From assembly GCA_030838245.1 (NCBI GenBank), contig JAUTXB010000115.1:1-7588 (forward strand): 7,588 bases of DNA, given 5' to 3'. Made by a program: the position numbers and the translations under genes. The stretch comes from Acidimicrobiaceae bacterium (GTDB lineage Bacteria > Actinomycetota > Acidimicrobiia > Acidimicrobiales > RAAP-2). Of the stretch, positions 194-7,588 are shown piece after piece. Each line of letters starts with the position of its first letter. The stretch's first letter is position 1. Below the pieces are notes generated by a model. That model worked only from the letters and a program-made list of their open reading frames with translations. It made no database searches and was not told where the DNA came from.

Positions 194-1315
194 TCAGGTG
201 TAGAGAACCACCCCGCGGATGTTCGTTCCCGCGTGCATGTCCTCGTATCCCTTACTCACTTCGTCCAAGGCGTAGGTGGTGGTGATCAGCTCATCCAGCT
301 TGAGCTGGCCTTCCCGGTACATCTGTATCTGGCGGGGGATGTCGGCCGTGGGGTTGCAGGCGCCGAAGAGCGAACCCTGGATCCGTTTCTGGGACAACGT
401 CAGCTCGAGGAGCGAGACGGGAATGCCGACCTCGGACATGGGCCCGATGCCGGTGACCACCACCGTGCCTGCCTTGCGGGTGGCGGCAAAGGCCTGGGCG
501 ACGTGCTCACCGGTGGTCACACCGACGGTGACGATGACGGCGTCGGCCCCCTGTCCGTCGGTGACGCTCTTGGCGAACTCGTTTGCCTCGGCGATCCCCT
601 CAAAGGCGTGGGTGGCCCCGAGCTCGAGGGCCTTTTCCCGCTTCATGGCCACCGGGTCGACGGCGATGACATGCGACGCCCCGACATGGGCAGCGCCCTG
701 GACAGCATTGATGCCGATCCCGCCGACGCCCATGATGATCACCGTGTCACCCGGATCGAGTTCCGCCGAGTGCACCGAGGCGCCCCAGCCCGTACCCACC
801 CCGCAGCCCAGCAGGCACAGGGTCTCCAGTGGCAGGTCCTTCGGCACCTTGACCGCCGACATGACCGACACCACCGTGTGCTCGCAGAAGGTGGAGACGC
901 CGGACATCTGACCGACGCGCTGGCCCTCAAGAGTATGGAGCCGGAAGCTCTCGGGATCCCCAGGGCGGCAGCCGCTCAGAATGGTGGCCCCGAAGGTACA
1001 AAGATTCTGGTGGCCGGTGGCGCACCACCGGCAGCGTCCGCACGCCGGAAGAAAGGAGAACACGACATGGTCGCCTACCTCGAAGTCAGGGGTATGGGGC
1101 CCGACCTTCTCCACGACACCGGATCCCTCATGACCGCCGGCCATGGGAAGCACTGTGGTGCGGAGATCCCCCGTGGCCAGGTGGTCGTCGGAGTGGCACA
1201 AGCCCGACGCCACCATTCGGACCAGGAGCTCGTCCTGTCGGGGATCGTCCAGCTCCAGCTCCATGGTCTCGTACCGGCCCGGTGACGAGCTGATGACCGC
1301 TCCTCGTGTCCTCAT
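194..1315 (-). CDS. NDMA-dependent-type zinc alcohol dehydrogenase (MDR superfamily)
   Basis: This 373-residue medium-chain dehydrogenase should oxidise an alcohol to an aldehyde (or the reverse) in the cytoplasm. Visible catalytic zinc ligands are Cys40 (GLCHSDDH), His62 (GGHEGSG) and Cys171 (LLGCGVGTGWG). The structural zinc is held by Cys92, Cys95, Cys98 and Cys106. The Rossmann motif GVGGIG is at 196-201, with Asp220 after the second strand, which favours NAD(H) over NADP(H). The blocks MGVGGIGINAVQGAAH, VIAVDPV.K, GSLFGACNP.ADIP and QLKLDELITTTY match my memory of the actinobacterial NDMA-dependent group (Rxyl_3153-like). That group keeps NAD tightly bound and is linked to mycofactocin as its redox partner. 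The start is supported by AAGGGGGAA five bases upstream. The gene is transcribed away from the CoA-ligase/E1 set, so a shared pathway is only inferred. The alcohol substrate is unknown. Confidence 0.93.
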   Translation of the reverse strand: MRTRGAVISSSPGRYETMELELDDPRQDELLVRMVASGLCHSDDHLATGDLRTTVLPMAGGHEGSGVVEKVGPHTPDFEVGDHVVFSFLPACGRCRWCATGHQNLCTFGATILSGCRPGDPESFRLHTLEGQRVGQMSGVSTFCEHTVVSVMSAVKVPKDLPLETLCLLGCGVGTGWGASVHSAELDPGDTVIIMGVGGIGINAVQGAAHVGASHVIAVDPVAMKREKALELGATHAFEGIAEANEFAKSVTDGQGADAVIVTVGVTTGEHVAQAFAATRKAGTVVVTGIGPMSEVGIPVSLLELTLSQKRIQGSLFGACNPTADIPRQIQMYREGQLKLDELITTTYALDEVSKGYEDMHAGTNIRGVVLYT

Positions 1316-1662: not shown

Positions 1663-1680
1663 ATCAGGGAACCGCTGATG
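1663..1680 (+). promoter_or_regulatory. Start leader of acyl-CoA synthetase 1 with ribosome binding site
   Basis: ATCAGGGAACCGCTGATG ends in the start codon at 1678-1680, and AGGGA (1666-1670) is the likely ribosome binding site, seven bases away. The same string with an extra AGG (ATCAGGAGGGAACCGCTGATG) precedes the crotonase start at 7215-7235. The match supports both start sites. Confidence 0.6.
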
Positions 1681-3162
1681 CCTGCGGCTACGCCCTTCGG
1701 GCGAGTGCTCGAGGGTGTAACCGCTACGGACCCCCAGCGCGCCGCTCTGATCATTGACGGAACCGTCACCACCTACGGCGAGCTCGACGCAGCCGTCGCC
1801 CAGTGTGCATCGGGCCTCCGCGCTGCTGGGGTGGCCCCCGGTTGGCGTATCCCGTTGGTCGACGACACCAGCGTGCTGTCGACGGCCACCCTCATCGGCG
1901 CGACCCACGTGGGCGCGGCGGCGGCACTCATGAACCCCCGCCTGACCAGCGGTGAGCTCGCCGTGTTGATGGAGGCGGCGGAGACGGCGCCAATCGGTGT
2001 GGCCGGAGCCGGTTCCGTCGGTGTTCTCCGAGGCGTGGGTCACACCACCGTCCTCGGCGTCGACGAGCTGCTCGGCGGCCCGACCCGAGACCGGTCTCTG
2101 GCTCAAGACCCCGCCTCCGATGACGAGGCCGTGGTGCTGTTCACCAGTGGCACTACCGGTACGCCCAAAGCGGTGGCCCTTACTCACGGGCTGGTGGCGC
2201 CGAAGATCGCCGCGTTCGCGCCTGGGGTCGAGACCGAACCGTCGGTCTCGCTCATGTGCGTACCGTTCGTGCACATCGGGGGCATGCTCGGCCTGATGGT
2301 GCAGCTGGCCAAGGGCAACACGACCGTCGTCCAGACCCGTTTCGAGGCGGGCGAGTGGCTGGCCTTGGTGGCCCGGCACGGTGTGCAGACCTCCTTTTTG
2401 GTCCCGACGATGTTGCACCGGATCCTCGACCACCCGGACTTCGCCAGCACCGATCTCCGCTCGCTCACCAGCCTGACCTATGGGGCCGCGCCCGCGTCGC
2501 CCGAGTTGATCCGACGGGCCATGGACTTGCTCCCGGATGTGGAGCTGACCAACACCTTCGGCCAGACCGAGACGATGGGCTCGATTACCGCGCTCGGCCC
2601 CGGCGACCACGGGGCGGAGCGCCTGGCTTCCGTGGGTCGTCCGCTGCCCGGTGTCGAGGTGCGGATCGTCGACCCCGTGTCCGGCCACGCCGTGCCGACC
2701 GGGGTGGTGGGGGAGCTCTGGGTGAAGAGCGAGGGCAGTGTGGTCCCGAGCGCTGCGGCCAACGATCCCAGCGTGCCGACGGGCTGGTTCCGCACCGGGG
2801 ACATGGTCTCGGCCGACGACGAGGGATACCTCTATCCATCGGGGCGCCTCTCCGACACCATCAACCGAGGAGGAGAGAAGTTCGCCCCCTCGGAGGTGGA
2901 AGCGATCGTGCGGACCCATCCCACCGTCCGTGATGTGGCCGTGGTGGGAGTTCCCGACCCGGAGATGGGCAATCGGGTCGGTTGTGCCATCGTCGGCCGT
3001 GAGGCGATCACCGGCGACGCGCTCCGGGCCTTCTGCACGGGACGCATCGCCAACTTCAAGTTGCCCGAGCGGCTGATGTTCGTGGACGAGATCCCCTACA
3101 ACGACTTCGGCAAGGTGGACCGCAAGGAGCTTCGGGCCCGGTTCGCGGCACAAGGCTTGTGA
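1678..3162 (+). CDS. Acyl-CoA synthetase 1 (AMP-forming, ANL superfamily)
   Basis: This 494-residue enzyme should activate a carboxylic acid with ATP to an acyl-adenylate and then form the CoA thioester. The large N-terminal domain carries the ATP-loop TSGTTGTPK (156-164), the FGQTE motif (294-298; often YGxTE) and the FRTGD motif with Asp375. The hinge and C-terminal domain carry GRLSDTINRGGEK (389-401). The catalytic lysine is Lys479 in NDFGKVDRK. All core motifs are intact and the length is normal for the family. INRGGEK resembles short-chain and oxalyl-CoA-synthetase-like members more than long-chain FadD proteins, but the substrate cannot be assigned. It is the first gene of the plus-strand set, and the E1 alpha gene starts 88 bases downstream. 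A hairpin follows the stop at once. Confidence 0.93.
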   Translation: MPAATPFGRVLEGVTATDPQRAALIIDGTVTTYGELDAAVAQCASGLRAAGVAPGWRIPLVDDTSVLSTATLIGATHVGAAAALMNPRLTSGELAVLMEAAETAPIGVAGAGSVGVLRGVGHTTVLGVDELLGGPTRDRSLAQDPASDDEAVVLFTSGTTGTPKAVALTHGLVAPKIAAFAPGVETEPSVSLMCVPFVHIGGMLGLMVQLAKGNTTVVQTRFEAGEWLALVARHGVQTSFLVPTMLHRILDHPDFASTDLRSLTSLTYGAAPASPELIRRAMDLLPDVELTNTFGQTETMGSITALGPGDHGAERLASVGRPLPGVEVRIVDPVSGHAVPTGVVGELWVKSEGSVVPSAAANDPSVPTGWFRTGDMVSADDEGYLYPSGRLSDTINRGGEKFAPSEVEAIVRTHPTVRDVAVVGVPDPEMGNRVGCAIVGREAITGDALRAFCTGRIANFKLPERLMFVDEIPYNDFGKVDRKELRARFAAQGL

Positions 3163-3250: not shown

Positions 3251-4264
3251 ATGCAACCGACAACCGAGCACGTGACCGCGGGCGGGGGCCTGTCGGACGC
3301 CGCCGCCCTACGCATCTTTCGCACGATGACGACCATACGGACAACCGAGGACCGGATCATCCGGGGACTGAGCTCCGGCGAGCTCACCATGACCTACTAC
3401 ACGGTCCGAGGACAAGAGGCGATTCCCGCGGCCATCTGTGAGCATCTCCGCCGAGACGACTACATGGTGACTACCTACCGGGGTACCCACGACTGCATTG
3501 CCAAGGGCGTTCCCCTCGACGAGCTCTTGGCCGAGATGCTCGGGAAGGCGACGGGCACGTCCAAGGGCAAGGGCGGACCCATGCACCTCTCGGACCCCCG
3601 GTCGGGCCTGATGGTGACCACCGGTGTGGTGGGAGGTGGGTTGCCGATCGCCGCCGGACTGGCCTTGTCGAGCCAGCTGCGAGGCACCGACCAGGTCACC
3701 GTGGTCAACTTCGGCGATGGCGCCACCAGCATCGGCGCAACCCATGAGGCGTGCAACCTGGCCGCACTGTGGCAGCTCCCGGTGGTCTTCGTGTGCCAGA
3801 ACAACCGGTACGGGGAGCACACCAAGTTCGCCGAGTACACGCGTACCACGAGCCTGGCCGAGCGCTTCGGCGCCTACGGCATGGAGGCCCGGACGGTGGA
3901 CGGGAACAGCATCCCGACCATGAGCGCGGCCGCCGAGGAGGCGATCGGGCGGGCCCGGGCCGGACAGGGCCCGACCTTTCTCGAGTGCATGACCTACCGG
4001 CTGGGGGGTCACTCGTTCGGCTCGACCACTGAGTACATGGACCCAGGCGAGCTCTCGGCCGCCGAGGCCGCCGAGCCGGTGGGCCGGAACCGAACCTGGC
4101 TGCGAGACGAGCGGGGGATCGGTGAGGACGTGCTCGCTGACATGGAGGCCGAGGTTCGCGTCCAGGTTGAAGCCGCCCTCGAGTCGGCGAAAGCGAGCGC
4201 CCCGCCCTCACCGGACGAGCTGTTGACCGATGTGTTCTCGAGCCTGGAGGCGTCGCCGCGATGA
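3251..4264 (+). CDS. 2-oxoacid dehydrogenase E1 component, alpha subunit (thiamine diphosphate)
   Basis: This 337-residue subunit forms a heterotetrameric E1 with the next gene product. The E1 decarboxylates a 2-oxoacid (or cleaves acetoin) on thiamine diphosphate and passes the acyl group to a lipoyl domain. The TPP/Mg motif is GDG (155-157) to NN (184-185), with normal spacing. GQEA (54-57), YRGTH (76-80) and GKATGTSKGKGGPMH (98-112) are typical of acetoin/pyruvate-type alpha subunits. The active-site loop YRLGGHS (249-255) keeps the conserved His254 and Ser255, followed by the less usual FGSTTEYMDP. Length is normal. The last four bases (ATGA) overlap the beta gene, implying coupled translation. 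Actual substrate (pyruvate, acetoin, branched-chain or other oxoacid) is not decidable from motifs. Confidence 0.93.
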   Translation: MQPTTEHVTAGGGLSDAAALRIFRTMTTIRTTEDRIIRGLSSGELTMTYYTVRGQEAIPAAICEHLRRDDYMVTTYRGTHDCIAKGVPLDELLAEMLGKATGTSKGKGGPMHLSDPRSGLMVTTGVVGGGLPIAAGLALSSQLRGTDQVTVVNFGDGATSIGATHEACNLAALWQLPVVFVCQNNRYGEHTKFAEYTRTTSLAERFGAYGMEARTVDGNSIPTMSAAAEEAIGRARAGQGPTFLECMTYRLGGHSFGSTTEYMDPGELSAAEAAEPVGRNRTWLRDERGIGEDVLADMEAEVRVQVEAALESAKASAPPSPDELLTDVFSSLEASPR

Positions 4265-5262
4265 GTGCACCACAGCAAGCGGACGCCGACCCGATCCACA
4301 CCATGGCCGAAGCGGTGAACCAGGCCATCGACCAGGCCATGGGGGAGGACCCTGATGTCTTCGCGCTGGGCGAGGACATCGAAGACCCCATCGGCGGGGT
4401 CATGAAGGGCACCAAGGGCCTGTCGACCAAGTACGGCCGGGAACGGGTCCGGAACACTCCCATCTCCGAGCAGGCCATCGTGGGGGCAGCCATCGGTGCG
4501 TCGCTGGTGGGCATGCGTCCGATCGCCGAGGTCATGTTGATGGACTTCTTCGCCGTGGCCATGGACCAGGTGGCGAACCACGCGGCCAAGCTCCGCTACA
4601 TGTCCGGCGGACGGACGAACGTTCCCATCACCATTCGCACCTCGGTCGGGGGTGGTCGCCAGTTCGGGGCCCAGCATTCCCAGTCGCTCGAGGCGTGGAT
4701 GATGCATGTCCCCGGCCTCAAGGTGGCCGTGCCGTCGACGCCCGGCGATGCCAAGGGCCTGCTGTACTCGTGCATCTTCGACGACGACCCGTGCATTCAC
4801 ATGGAGACGCTGTCGCTGCTCTTCACCCGGGGGCCGGTCCCCGCCCAGAAATTCCAGATCCCGCTCGGCGTCGCCGACGTAAAGCGAGAGGGTGGCGACG
4901 TCACGGTGGTGACCTGGGGATGGCAGGTTCCCGAGGCGCTGGCCGCGGCCGAGGTCCTAGCCGGAGAGGGGATCAGCGTGGAGGTGGTCGACCTGCGCAC
5001 CTTGGTGCCGCTCGATCGGGACGCGGTGTTGGCCAGTGTGGCCAAGACCAAGCGTCTGGTGATCGTGCACGCAGCCACCAGGTTCGCCGGCCCGGGGGCA
5101 GAGATCGCCTCGATGGTGTCATACGAGCTCTTCGGTGAGCTGGCCGCGCCGGTCCAACGCCTTGGCGCGGTCTACTCGCCGGTTCCCTATGCCACCGAGC
5201 TCGAGACCCTCCACTATCCCAATCGGGTGGGAATCGCCGAGACAATCCGGGCACTGGCGTGA
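4261..5262 (+). CDS. 2-oxoacid dehydrogenase E1 component, beta subunit
   Basis: This 333-residue transketolase-like beta subunit pairs with the alpha subunit. Visible family features are ALGEDIEDPIGG (35-46), PISEQAIVG (67-75) with Glu70 that activates the TPP ring, QFGAQHSQSLEAW (134-146) with the active-site His139, and the C-terminal domain blocks EVVDLRTLVPLD (241-252) and VHAATRFAGPGAEIA (269-283). No key residue seems missing and the length is normal. GGAGG at 4246-4250, ten bases before the ATG and inside the alpha gene, is the likely ribosome binding site. The ATGA overlap and the 4-base gap to the lipoyl gene mark a tight operon. Confidence 0.93.
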   Translation: MSAPQQADADPIHTMAEAVNQAIDQAMGEDPDVFALGEDIEDPIGGVMKGTKGLSTKYGRERVRNTPISEQAIVGAAIGASLVGMRPIAEVMLMDFFAVAMDQVANHAAKLRYMSGGRTNVPITIRTSVGGGRQFGAQHSQSLEAWMMHVPGLKVAVPSTPGDAKGLLYSCIFDDDPCIHMETLSLLFTRGPVPAQKFQIPLGVADVKREGGDVTVVTWGWQVPEALAAAEVLAGEGISVEVVDLRTLVPLDRDAVLASVAKTKRLVIVHAATRFAGPGAEIASMVSYELFGELAAPVQRLGAVYSPVPYATELETLHYPNRVGIAETIRALA

Positions 5263-5266
5263 GGCG

Positions 5267-5512
5267 ATGAGCGAGAATCGGACGTGGATCAAGATCCCCA
5301 AGGCCGGTGTGGCCATCACCGAGGGCACCATCGTCCAGTGGCTGGTAGCCGACGGCAGCCAGGTCACCGAGGGTCAACCGCTGTACGTGCTCGAGACCGA
5401 GAAGGTCGAGATGGAGGTCGAATGCCCGTCGTCGGGCGTGGTCCGAATCAGTGGGCAGGCCGGTCAGGTCTACCCGGTGGGAGAGACAGTGGGGTTCGTC
5501 GATGCCGGGTGA
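5267..5512 (+). CDS. Free-standing lipoyl-domain protein (E2-like, no acyltransferase domain)
   Basis: This 81-residue protein is a single lipoyl domain and nothing else. It aligns over its whole length with the N-terminal domain of E2 subunits: IPKAGVAITEGTIVQW (10-25), a G.P.. turn (GQPL, 36-39), then ETEKVEMEV (43-51) with Lys46 as the probable lipoylation site, and the PSSGVV hairpin (54-59). TEKV at the tip points to lipoate; biotin carriers usually have MKM. There is no peripheral-subunit-binding domain and no HxxxD catalytic core, because the frame stops at 5510-5512. It begins four bases after the E1 beta stop, with only a weak GAGG before it, so translation is probably coupled. It should accept the acyl group from the E1 pair. 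The acyltransferase and dihydrolipoamide dehydrogenase must be encoded elsewhere. Confidence 0.9.
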   Translation: MSENRTWIKIPKAGVAITEGTIVQWLVADGSQVTEGQPLYVLETEKVEMEVECPSSGVVRISGQAGQVYPVGETVGFVDAG

Positions 5513-5542: not shown

Positions 5543-7054
5543 TTGCGCCGTGACGCGATCGGCTGCTCGTTGAACGGGCAGGTCGGCTCGCACCTGCGGG
5601 GTGTGGCCGCCACCGCAGCCCTCGACGCCGACCGGGTGGCCATCATCGACGGCCCCCAGGTGGTCACCTTCGGTGAGCTCGATGCCCGGGCCAACGGGCT
5701 GGCCACCCGTCTGGCCGAGCTGGGGGTGGAGCCGGGCGACACCGTCGGCATCGGGATGAGGAACCGCCCCGAGTGGTTCACTGCTTCGCACGCCATCGCC
5801 CGTCTCGGAGCCATGTTCGTGCCCATCTCACCCCGGCTGACTTCCGAGGAAGCGGGCTACATCGTTCGTGACTCGCGGATGAAAGCGTTCATCGCTGAGA
5901 CCGCGGTCGGCTTCGCCGCCGACGGGGTCCACGTGCTCGACATCGACGCCTCCGACTTCCCGGGGCCGGTCGACCGTCCACCCCGAGACGACTTCCTCAA
6001 CACGGGGCCGACCCTCCTCGGCTATACGTCGGGCACCACCGGACGTCCGAAGGCGGTGGAGCGACCGGCACCGGTCCCTGCTCCGGTGGCCACCACGTCG
6101 GCGGTCGCAGCCTTTTGGGGTTACGGCCCCGACACGGTGCAGCTGGTCTGCGGCCCGCTCTACCACACCGCCCCGAGCGCCTATGCCGAGTACTCGCTGT
6201 GGGAGGGCGGGCAGGTGGTGGTACAGGACAAATTCGTCGGCGAGCGGTGTCTCTCCCTCATCGAGCAGCACCGGGTCACCCGGACCCAGATGGTCCCCGC
6301 CCATTTCGTACGGATCCTCGAAGCGGACTGGGCGGCATACGACCGCTCGACCATCCGACTCCTCATCCACGCCGCCGCCCCCTGTCCGGTGCCCCTCAAG
6401 GCGCGCATCATGGAGGTGTTCCCGCCCGGGACGATCTGGGAGCTGTACGGAGCCACTGAAGCCATGGGGACAGTCATCTCGCCCGGTGAGTGGCTGTTCA
6501 AGCCGGGGAGCGTCGGTCGGCCCTTTCCCGGGCTCGAGGTGCGCGTCCTGGACGAGGACGGCAAGGCGGCGGCACCGGGAGAGGTGGGCACGATCTACAT
6601 CAGCCCGTTTCCCGGAGCGGCCTTCGCCTATCGGGGCGACGCCGAGAAGACCGCCGCCGCCTATCGCGATGGATTCGCCACCGTCGGGGACCTCGGGCAT
6701 CTGGATGAGCACGGTTACCTGTTCATCGCCGATCGACGTACCGACCTGATCTTGAGCGGAGGCGTGAACGTCTATCCGGCCGAGGTCGAGAACGCCCTCG
6801 CCGCCGATCCCGATGTGGTCGACTCGGCGGTGATCGGCCTACCCGACGAGCGGATGGGTCAGCGGGTACACGCCATCATCGAGCTCCGCCCGGGAGTGGC
6901 ACTCGATCCTGCGCTCATCCTCGATCGTCTTTCCGAGCGACTGGCCGACTTCAAGCGTCCGAGGACGATCGAGTTCGTGGCCACCCTCCCCCGGGAGCCC
7001 AATGGAAAGGTGTTGAAGCGCCAACTACAAGTCGAGCGGGCAGAGACGCGCTGA
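5543..7054 (+). CDS. Acyl-CoA synthetase 2 (AMP-forming, ANL superfamily)
   Basis: A second ATP-dependent CoA ligase, about 503 residues. Numbered from a TTG at 5543, it has YTSGTTGRPK (161-170), LYGATE (301-306), TVGD (380-383), RRTDLILSGGVNVYPAEVE (398-416) and the catalytic Lys489 in NGKVLKR. All motifs are intact. The start is uncertain: TTG at 5543, TTG at 5570 (giving NGQVGSHLRGVA, the more family-like N-terminus) and GTG at 5603 are in frame, and none has a clear ribosome binding site. It lies in the same reading frame as the lipoyl gene, 30 bases after that gene's TGA. AVERPAPVPAP after the ATP loop and the later GPLYHTAP resemble mycobacterial-type FadD ligases with RPLP and YHAAP blocks. 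It differs clearly from synthetase 1, so it is not a recent duplicate, and the substrate is unknown. Confidence 0.92.
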   Translation: MRRDAIGCSLNGQVGSHLRGVAATAALDADRVAIIDGPQVVTFGELDARANGLATRLAELGVEPGDTVGIGMRNRPEWFTASHAIARLGAMFVPISPRLTSEEAGYIVRDSRMKAFIAETAVGFAADGVHVLDIDASDFPGPVDRPPRDDFLNTGPTLLGYTSGTTGRPKAVERPAPVPAPVATTSAVAAFWGYGPDTVQLVCGPLYHTAPSAYAEYSLWEGGQVVVQDKFVGERCLSLIEQHRVTRTQMVPAHFVRILEADWAAYDRSTIRLLIHAAAPCPVPLKARIMEVFPPGTIWELYGATEAMGTVISPGEWLFKPGSVGRPFPGLEVRVLDEDGKAAAPGEVGTIYISPFPGAAFAYRGDAEKTAAAYRDGFATVGDLGHLDEHGYLFIADRRTDLILSGGVNVYPAEVENALAADPDVVDSAVIGLPDERMGQRVHAIIELRPGVALDPALILDRLSERLADFKRPRTIEFVATLPREPNGKVLKRQLQVERAETR

Positions 7055-7073: not shown

Positions 7074-7082
7074 CGTGTCGAG

Positions 7083-7181
7083 GACCAGCCGAATCGCACC
7101 GTGGTCGGGGGAACCGACCAGCCAATTCGCACCGTGGTCGGGGAAACCGACCAGCCGAATCGCACCGTGGTCGGGGAAACC
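7083..7181. repeat. Three tandem copies of a 33-bp repeat with hairpins across the junctions
   Basis: The copies are 7083-7115, 7116-7148 and 7149-7181. Each starts GACCAGCC, contains TCGCACCGTGGTCGGGG and ends AACC. Copies 1 and 3 differ by one base (G or A before AACC); copy 2 has CCAATTCG where the others have CCGAATCG. Across each junction TGGTCGG and CCGACCA form a 7-bp stem with a 5-base loop (7102-7120 and 7135-7153). The array fills more than half of the 178-base gap between synthetase 2 and the crotonase. There are no spacers, so it is not CRISPR. It may be a transcript-stabilising or terminating structure, a protein-binding array, or a copy of a dispersed intergenic repeat. Confidence 0.9.
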
Positions 7182-7217
7182 GGGGCTCGCGCCTCTGAGT
7201 CCCTTGATCGCCTAATC

Positions 7218-7232: not shown

Positions 7233-7588
7233 ATGGACCGCACCGAGATGGAGACGATCATCTATGAGAAGGACGGGGCGATCGCTCGCATCGTCTTGAA
7301 CATGCCGGAGAAGGCCAACATCCAGACCGCCCAACAGGTGTGGGACTTCGAGGACGCGCTCAAGTGGGCCAACCGCGACGAGGAGGTGAAGGTGCTCATC
7401 GTGAAGGCCAACGGCAAAGGCTTTTGCGCCGGGCACGCCATCGTCGAGCCCGAGGAGATGGCCGAGGTGTACCCCACGACCGGCCCCACGCCCGAGCGGA
7501 CGTGGAAGAGCCACAACTACGACCTCTTCCTGTGGCCACCGTTGAACCTCTGGGAGTTCCCGAAGGCGACGATCTCCCAGATCCACGG
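7233..7588 (+). CDS. Enoyl-CoA hydratase/isomerase (crotonase family), 3'-truncated by the window end
   Basis: The first 118 codons are visible. The N-terminal crotonase strand pattern is clear: IIYEKDGAIARIVLNMPEKANIQ (9-31), VKVLIVKANGKGFCAGHAI (52-70) with the first oxyanion-hole segment around CAGH (65-68), then FPKATISQIHG, which normally leads into the second oxyanion segment just past the window edge. Family members add water to enoyl-CoAs, isomerise double bonds, or cleave or hydrolyse acyl-CoAs. The catalytic glutamates lie beyond the end, so the reaction cannot be assigned. A stretch rich in Trp and Pro (TWKSHNYDLFLWPPLNLWEFP, 90-110) lies between the two segments and may shape the pocket. 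The gene follows synthetase 2 after a 178-base gap and probably acts on a CoA thioester made by one of the ligases. Confidence 0.9.
   Translation, partial: MDRTEMETIIYEKDGAIARIVLNMPEKANIQTAQQVWDFEDALKWANRDEEVKVLIVKANGKGFCAGHAIVEPEEMAEVYPTTGPTPERTWKSHNYDLFLWPPLNLWEFPKATISQIH

Follow-up and report, generated by a model that had tools for sequence, protein, structure and literature searches.

A free-standing lipoyl protein encoded with a ThDP-dependent E1: the putative front half of a split 2-oxoacid dehydrogenase

Introduction

2-Oxoacid dehydrogenases are a standard example of substrate channelling, in which a swinging arm is tethered to a large core. Other lipoyl systems are arranged differently: GcvH of the glycine cleavage system is a free lipoyl carrier protein, and AcoC consists of a lipoyl domain and a hydrolase fold. 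A Haloferax E1 operon with an unattached single-domain lipoyl protein was reportedly described by Wanner and Soppa in 2002. One article (PMC3904984) lists single-domain lipoyl proteins of archaea as a class, in passages that mention no separate E2 core; the comparison with our locus is by description only. Passages of three other articles state that OdhA relies on E2p to supply lipoyl in trans (PMC10415282, PMC8146983, PMC7568260). In this corynebacterial and mycobacterial system (OdhA or KGD, with AceF), as described in those passages, an E2 core without a lipoyl domain of its own is fused to E1o and served in trans by a full-length E2. The OdhA/E2p and archaeal precedents show that lipoyl can be supplied in trans and that lipoyl proteins can be bare. 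For an E2 whose two halves are separate proteins accompanying a single E1 module, we found no description in the open-licence literature, covered as titles and the starts of abstracts.

Here, we analysed a stretch of 7,588 nucleotides (the window) in which E1α and E1β genes are followed by a gene for a lipoyl domain alone. Everything reported beyond its ends was read from genomes and plasmids of relatives. The system resembles the canonical PDH, BCKDH and ODH complexes in the ThDP folds of E1αβ, the PF00364 lipoyl domain, the PF00198 cores and the E3 in relatives' genomes. It differs from them in that the lipoyl protein is separate, no E2 gene stands beside E1 in the window, and no subunit-binding domain was seen in the lipoyl protein or in ten stand-alone cores of relatives. 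In contrast to OdhA/KGD, the carrier is not attached to an E2, and such cores as were found are proteins of their own.

Gene content and the lipoyl protein

The following genes were annotated in the window:

194..1315, minus strand: alcohol dehydrogenase of the NDMA-dependent type (TIGR03989, 537.3 bits, cut-off 440)
1678..3162, plus strand: CoA ligase 1 (AMP-binding), the upstream neighbour (PF00501, 226.5 bits)
3251..4264, plus strand: E1α subunit of a ThDP-dependent dehydrogenase, 337 aa (PF00676, 210.8 bits)
4261..5262, plus strand: E1β subunit, 333 aa (PF02779, 134.3 bits; PF02780, 120.6 bits; NCBIfam NF006667, 326.8 bits, cut-off 321)
5267..5512, plus strand: free-standing lipoyl carrier, 81 aa, acceptor Lys46 (PF00364, 60.1 bits)
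5543..7054, plus strand: CoA ligase 2 (AMP-binding), the gene after the lipoyl carrier (PF00501, 229.2 bits)
7233..7586, plus strand: 5' part of an enoyl-CoA hydratase family gene, truncated by the window end (PF00378, 29.3 bits)

The TTG start codon of CoA ligase 2 is uncertain and its role in the module putative. The open reading frames confirmed the tight E1α-E1β-lipoyl run of the initial annotation, including the 81-residue protein with Lys46: the E1 genes share an ATGA overlap, and four bases (5263-5266) separate E1β from the lipoyl gene. That the window itself holds no E2 gene was borne out by a Pfam scan of its ORFs. PF00676, PF02779 and PF02780, together with a conserved motif, assign E1αβ to the ThDP-dependent αβ type. 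The motif, G155-D156-G157 and N185 of E1α, is invariant in an alignment with six relatives and is presumably the ThDP motif. Neither E1 subunit matched PF00198, as an OdhA/KGD-like fusion would.

Instead of a canonical E2 with lipoyl, subunit-binding and catalytic domains on one polypeptide, the operon encodes a lipoyl-only protein. PF00364 covers its residues 8-73, no second Pfam family scored above cut-off, and Lys46 sits in the motif ETEKVEME. A protein search limited to 0.55-1.75 times the query length, which by itself does not exclude longer kin, returned 69 homologues of 62-96 aa, and Lys46 is invariant in the 25 that were aligned. In all 38 domains from 37 bare-type loci, at most 11 residues lie beyond the lipoyl domain and D or E precedes the acceptor lysine. 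Biotin carboxyl carriers have Met-Lys-Met around this lysine, and the protein was not assigned to them. Like GcvH it is a free lipoyl carrier; unlike GcvH it matched PF00364 but none of the GcvH families of Pfam or NCBIfam, and its partners differ. The E1αβ-lipoyl gene order is shared with acetoin dehydrogenase, and the lipoyl part of AcoC (NF011457) was the best NCBIfam match, but at 70.6 bits against a cut-off of 307 and over residues 6-80 only; the protein lacks the hydrolase domain and is not AcoC.

A scan of genome contigs for lipoyl loci, in which 80 of 87 were kept, separated two forms. The lipoyl frame stops 0-11 residues past the domain in ten loci (L001-L010), six of which have E1 genes within the examined stretch. 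Among the other 70 (L011-L080), 63 have an E2 core downstream of the lipoyl domain (in L051, in another frame), six have a frame that exits the stretch, and L031 stops after 145 residues. Since ordinary E2s were recovered by this same scan, the bare form constitutes a separate set.

Maximum-likelihood analysis of 56 E1β rows placed the window's E1β in a clade of 23 rows (support 99/98) from Acidimicrobiia and other MAGs and from plasmids of Streptomyces, Burkholderiales, Azospirillum and Sphingobium. All 23 belong to bare-lipoyl loci, referred to here as type 1, and none of the 19 rows labelled full lies inside the clade; we assigned these labels from locus readings, and one row labelled full (L139) is a broken lipoyl-hydrolase gene, not a core-bearing E2. 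A further 14 bare-locus rows fall outside, so bareness is not confined to this clade. The initial annotation had asked whether the small protein is, in homologous loci, always a fragment of a broken E2; the uniformly bare clade and the short tails of the 38 domains rule this out.

The direct order E1α-E1β-lipoyl was found in 17 of the 23 clade loci, with E1 fused in some. In L005, L135, L145, L146 and L192 the lipoyl gene is found at a distance of about 1.3 to 17 kb, and in L008 just upstream of E1α. An enoyl-CoA hydratase gene directly follows it in L001, L246 and L247, with 87% (L246) and 91% (L247) identity to the hydratase of the window. No E2 core was found in the examined stretches around these three loci, and the full-length E2 that the initial annotation had envisaged just outside the window, in the same operon, has no counterpart there.

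Occurrence of separate E2 cores

Stand-alone E2 cores were found in several relatives. On three Burkholderiales plasmids, of Diaphorobacter HDW4B, Paraburkholderia PGU19 and P. sprentiae (loci L083, L136 and L137), E1α-E1β-lipoyl is followed by an E2 core of 249-275 aa without a lipoyl or subunit-binding domain, annotated '2-oxo acid dehydrogenase subunit E2'. Plasmid pAB510b of Azospirillum B510 carries E1α-E1β-lipoyl-ligase-FAD protein at about 160-166 kb, and a second lipoyl gene with a 254-aa core behind IS elements at 80-81 kb, 80 kb from the E1αβ-lipoyl genes. In Sphingobium TomTYG74, E1αβ, a core and a lipoyl gene lie within about 20 kb on one island. The core, 231 aa long, is annotated 'hypothetical protein'; it occurs with the lipoyl gene on 10 of 10 such Sphingobium plasmids, which are near-copies of one another. 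The main text of the article on the Sphingobium tomato isolates (PMC10653915) does not contain the terms 'pyruvate dehydrogenase', 'acyl-CoA' or 'lipoyl'. The core of MAG G179 is on the same contig as the lipoyl gene, 28 kb away; next to it are a TetR gene and one for a Rieske protein of the family found in the cluster. In G001 and G009 the cores are unlinked to the lipoyl gene: that of G009 precedes a different, fused E1 of 680 aa, and that of G001 lies beside hisC-like, trpB-like and thiamine genes.

Ten stand-alone cores matched PF00198 and no other Pfam family (E 0.1). Asp-His-Arg and a Gly four residues on are invariant in twelve that were aligned. Ten short or mid-length frames, among the matches listed, were checked as further cores. 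The frames of L230, L231, L234, L235 and L236 end at contig edges; in L232, L233 and L237 core and lipoyl domain sit on different ORFs, through either a broken frame or a genuine split, and in L239 both share one frame. For L238 (432 aa), a one-domain read-out showed no clear lipoyl score, and it was counted in neither class. L204, L207 and L208 were gene-calling or contig-edge cases.

A second group of loci (type 2) has an E1β about 40% identical to that of the window. In five of seven genomes of Acidimicrobiia (G066, G108, G140, G193 and G217), a core and E1α-E1β-lipoyl lie on one strand within about 4-8 kb, although these genomes are close relatives rather than independent events, and four of the five, as well as G238, were found with a core profile that already included the core of G217. 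Opposite-strand ORFs separate the core from E1α-E1β-lipoyl in G066 and G217, the parts are split over two contigs in G238, and the contig of G276 stops before any core. In the type-2 loci inspected, an SDR gene and a 149-aa ORF adjoin E1α; by eye, the latter looks VOC-like.

The initial annotation had suggested that the lipoyl protein docks in trans on an E2 core encoded elsewhere. This gained support for the family, where cores lie beside the lipoyl gene, on the same plasmid or island, or elsewhere (L083, L136, L137, Azospirillum, Sphingobium, the type-2 loci, G001, G009 and G179); a core serving the window's own organism would be an extension of this pattern.

How often type-1 loci are accompanied by a dedicated core was determined with PF00198 in 26 genomes or records, namely 18 MAGs (G001, G002, G004, G007, G008, G009, G055, G057, G133, G174, G179, G182, G198, G254, G273, G307, G315 and G339) and plasmids W01-W07 and W09. 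The set did not include G003, G005, G006 and G010 (genomes of L004, L006, L007 and L010, with no E1 genes in the stretch) or the Rubrobacter plasmid W08, which is outside the E1β clade and carries no E2 core. A stand-alone core was present in 8 of the 26 (G001, G009, G179 and W03-W07). None was found by this search in the other 18, a count that draws on MAGs of unstated completeness, on plasmid sequence alone for W01, W02 and W09, and on G008, G055, G057 and G339, each of which has one core match cut by a contig edge. Among the five nearest MAGs (G001, G002, G307, G315 and G339) only G001 has a dedicated core, which has a long branch (2.62) and a weak placement in the core tree. No E2 core of any kind was found in G007. 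It is chiefly this low frequency that speaks against a simple model of two genes: where a dedicated core is missing, an E2 or OdhA-like core already in the cell has to take over, or a different route is used. Of the 18 MAGs, 13 had both a full-length E2 and an E2 match in a frame of more than 1,200 aa, which we take to be OdhA-like from its size. E3 and LipA each scored above cut-off in 12 of 14 relatives' genomes.

Phylogeny of the cores

A tree was constructed with 44 E2 cores, 14 stand-alone and 30 full (a subsample); OdhA-like cores were omitted, as were L051 and L140, which have lipoyl domain and core in different frames. Well-supported branches force at least four changes of the stand-alone label, some of which may be losses, and the placement of long rows is unsure. 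The proteobacterial cores group with the full-length E2s L194 and L195 (100/100) and show about 55% match to plasmid proteins annotated as AceF. The Sphingobium core, a long row, falls with another set of full E2s (98/95), and the type-2 cores with those of G179 and G009 fall with full E2s of Acidimicrobiia MAGs (95/97). Since the stand-alone cores are next to different full-length E2s while the type-1 E1 forms one clade, we read the trees as one E1-lipoyl module that probably gained a catalytic core several times. Such repeated gain suggests that the module needs an E2-type acceptor.

CoA ligases and neighbouring genes

The initial annotation had offered, as another route, hydrolysis of the acyl-lipoyl product to a free acid that a neighbouring ligase activates. 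A CoA ligase was found in the examined stretch of 5 of 8 loci with a core versus 6 of 15 without, a count that leaves the window out and draws on stretches of varying length. Ligase presence therefore does not track core absence, the ligase was rejected as an E2 substitute, and the hydrolysis route was left unsupported. Nor is a ligase always the next gene, as it is in the window: in L001, L246 and L247 no ligase lies between the lipoyl gene and the hydratase. Because the hydratase follows directly there, CoA ligase 2 seems to have joined a conserved cluster, rather than providing the acceptor step. A gene 70% identical to CoA ligase 1 is directly upstream of E1α in L247, as in the window.

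A Rieske oxygenase and/or a KstD-like flavoprotein was present in the examined stretch of 15 of 24 loci, according to profiles built from the very loci scanned. The P. sprentiae flavoprotein passed PRK12844, 3-ketosteroid-delta-1-dehydrogenase, with 924.1 bits (cut-off 789); those of L144 (699.2 bits), L143 (364.3 bits) and L246 (226.2 bits) were below it. Thiolase, acyl-CoA dehydrogenase, hydratase and transporter genes neighbour L001. From these Rieske/KstD-like and other neighbours we infer that the pathway is the breakdown of a cyclic ketone, steroid-like or smaller.

Discussion

We propose that the window encodes the front half of a split dehydrogenase acting on a 2-oxoacid (or an α-hydroxyketone), in which the free lipoyl protein takes acyl groups from E1 and delivers them in trans to an E2 core; we put the probability of this reading at about 60%. 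E1αβ with ThDP would cleave the substrate and reductively acylate a lipoyl group on Lys46. The carrier, which has no tether or subunit-binding domain, would then diffuse to a separate E2 acyltransferase core or, alternatively, to one belonging to an E2 or OdhA-type enzyme that the cell already has. There, CoA would take the acyl group, and a shared E3 would re-oxidise the carrier. The resulting acyl-CoA would enter the β-oxidation-like genes of the cluster.

Alternatively, no E2 may take part in the window's lineage, with acyl-lipoyl hydrolysed to a free acid and the acid activated by a neighbouring CoA ligase. Four of the five nearest MAGs have no dedicated core, the module is flanked by two ligases in the window, and a patatin-like hydrolase gene follows the lipoyl gene in Streptomyces L081. 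However, ligases are equally common in loci with and without a core, an E2 core accompanies the module in several lineages, and the thioester energy would be wasted. The ten neighbour proteins scanned also included no conserved hydrolase: FAA hydrolase, amidohydrolase, malate synthase and patatin each occurred in one or two loci. We consider this route unlikely. The same neighbour scan bears on an unrecognised transacylase, for instance an α/β-hydrolase of the AcoC-like type, as the acceptor where an E2 core is missing. The pairing of lipoyl domain and hydrolase fold in AcoC offers a precedent, and the AcoC lipoyl part is the best NCBIfam match of the carrier, albeit far below cut-off; none of the ten neighbours matched an α/β-hydrolase family, and no conserved alternative transferase was found among them beside core-less modules. 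Such an enzyme seems rather improbable.

The small protein could also have a role other than CoA acyl transfer, such as carrying electrons between E1 and E3, or be unlipoylated. Lys46 is a lipoylation site by prediction, and lipoyl proteins have been proposed as electron carriers in passages on LarG of Pelobacter. The tight linkage to E1αβ and the pairing with E2 cores in several lineages make such a role quite improbable. That the protein is left over from a broken E2, or arose as a sequencing artefact, is more doubtful still, and we give it hardly any weight: frame-broken genes do exist in the data set (L139, and L232, L233 and L237 with lipoyl domain and core in different ORFs), but the bare form extends over several phyla and complete plasmids, in all 23 clade rows and with at most 11 trailing residues in all 38 domains.

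A broader reading is conceivable, which we advance tentatively and hold to be doubtful as a whole. E1αβ and the untethered carrier may form a portable module that generates acyl groups in the breakdown of cyclic ketones (steroid- or terpenoid-like), that needs no multi-enzyme core, that several times gained a separate E2 catalytic half, and that elsewhere borrows the E2 or OdhA core of the cell. If true, 2-oxoacid dehydrogenase chemistry would here run in a core-less mode with a free carrier. The genes encode a pyruvate dehydrogenase-like enzyme in which the parts of a fused textbook complex seem to have come apart, with a separate swinging arm and, in several relatives, a separate catalytic half. 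An E1 with a free carrier, together with relatives' cores devoid of lipoyl and subunit-binding domains, offers a natural test of whether the tether and the large core are needed. The module also marks a catabolic cluster in which the small partner proteins are named merely 'hypothetical protein' or 'lipoyl domain-containing protein'.

E2 core on Sphingobium plasmids

A gene annotated as encoding a 'hypothetical protein' on plasmids of tomato-isolate Sphingobium was identified as a stand-alone E2 core, the catalytic half of E2, by its match to PF00198:

L192 (Sphingobium plasmid locus), 20239-20934, minus strand: stand-alone E2 core (PF00198, 198.8 bits)

An E2 core was also searched for on the Rubrobacter indicoceani plasmid that carries locus L141, and none was found on that plasmid. 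This locus fell outside the clade of the window, the 23-row E1β clade in which every row lies at a bare-lipoyl locus. Its E1α-E1β-lipoyl genes were adjoined by genes for a sugar transporter, glycerol-3-phosphate dehydrogenase and glycerol kinase.

Variation among the compared loci

Bare lipoyl genes, which encode the lipoyl domain alone, occurred twice within one locus (L143), twice on one plasmid (L082 and L193) and twice in each of two genomes (G002 and G307). At three loci with such genes (L004, L006 and L007), no E1 gene was recognised within the locus stretch examined; in L004, the bare lipoyl gene was followed by a hydratase gene. A single polypeptide of approximately 660–690 amino acids apparently corresponded to E1α plus E1β in L005, L009, L149, L151, L153, L154, L159 and L191.

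In Paraburkholderia phymatum (pBPHY02, L139), a short piece of an α/β-hydrolase came after the lipoyl gene, together with transposase genes. The lipoyl gene and hydrolase piece are apparently a broken gene of the AcoC type, in which a lipoyl domain is fused to an α/β-hydrolase.

Repeats in the window

By visual inspection, positions 7080-7190, which lie between ligase 2 and the hydratase, contained about three imperfect copies of a unit of approximately 34 bases. Motifs of the form 'tttgggcgaa', and also their complements, recurred by eye in positions 1-150, upstream of the alcohol dehydrogenase end.
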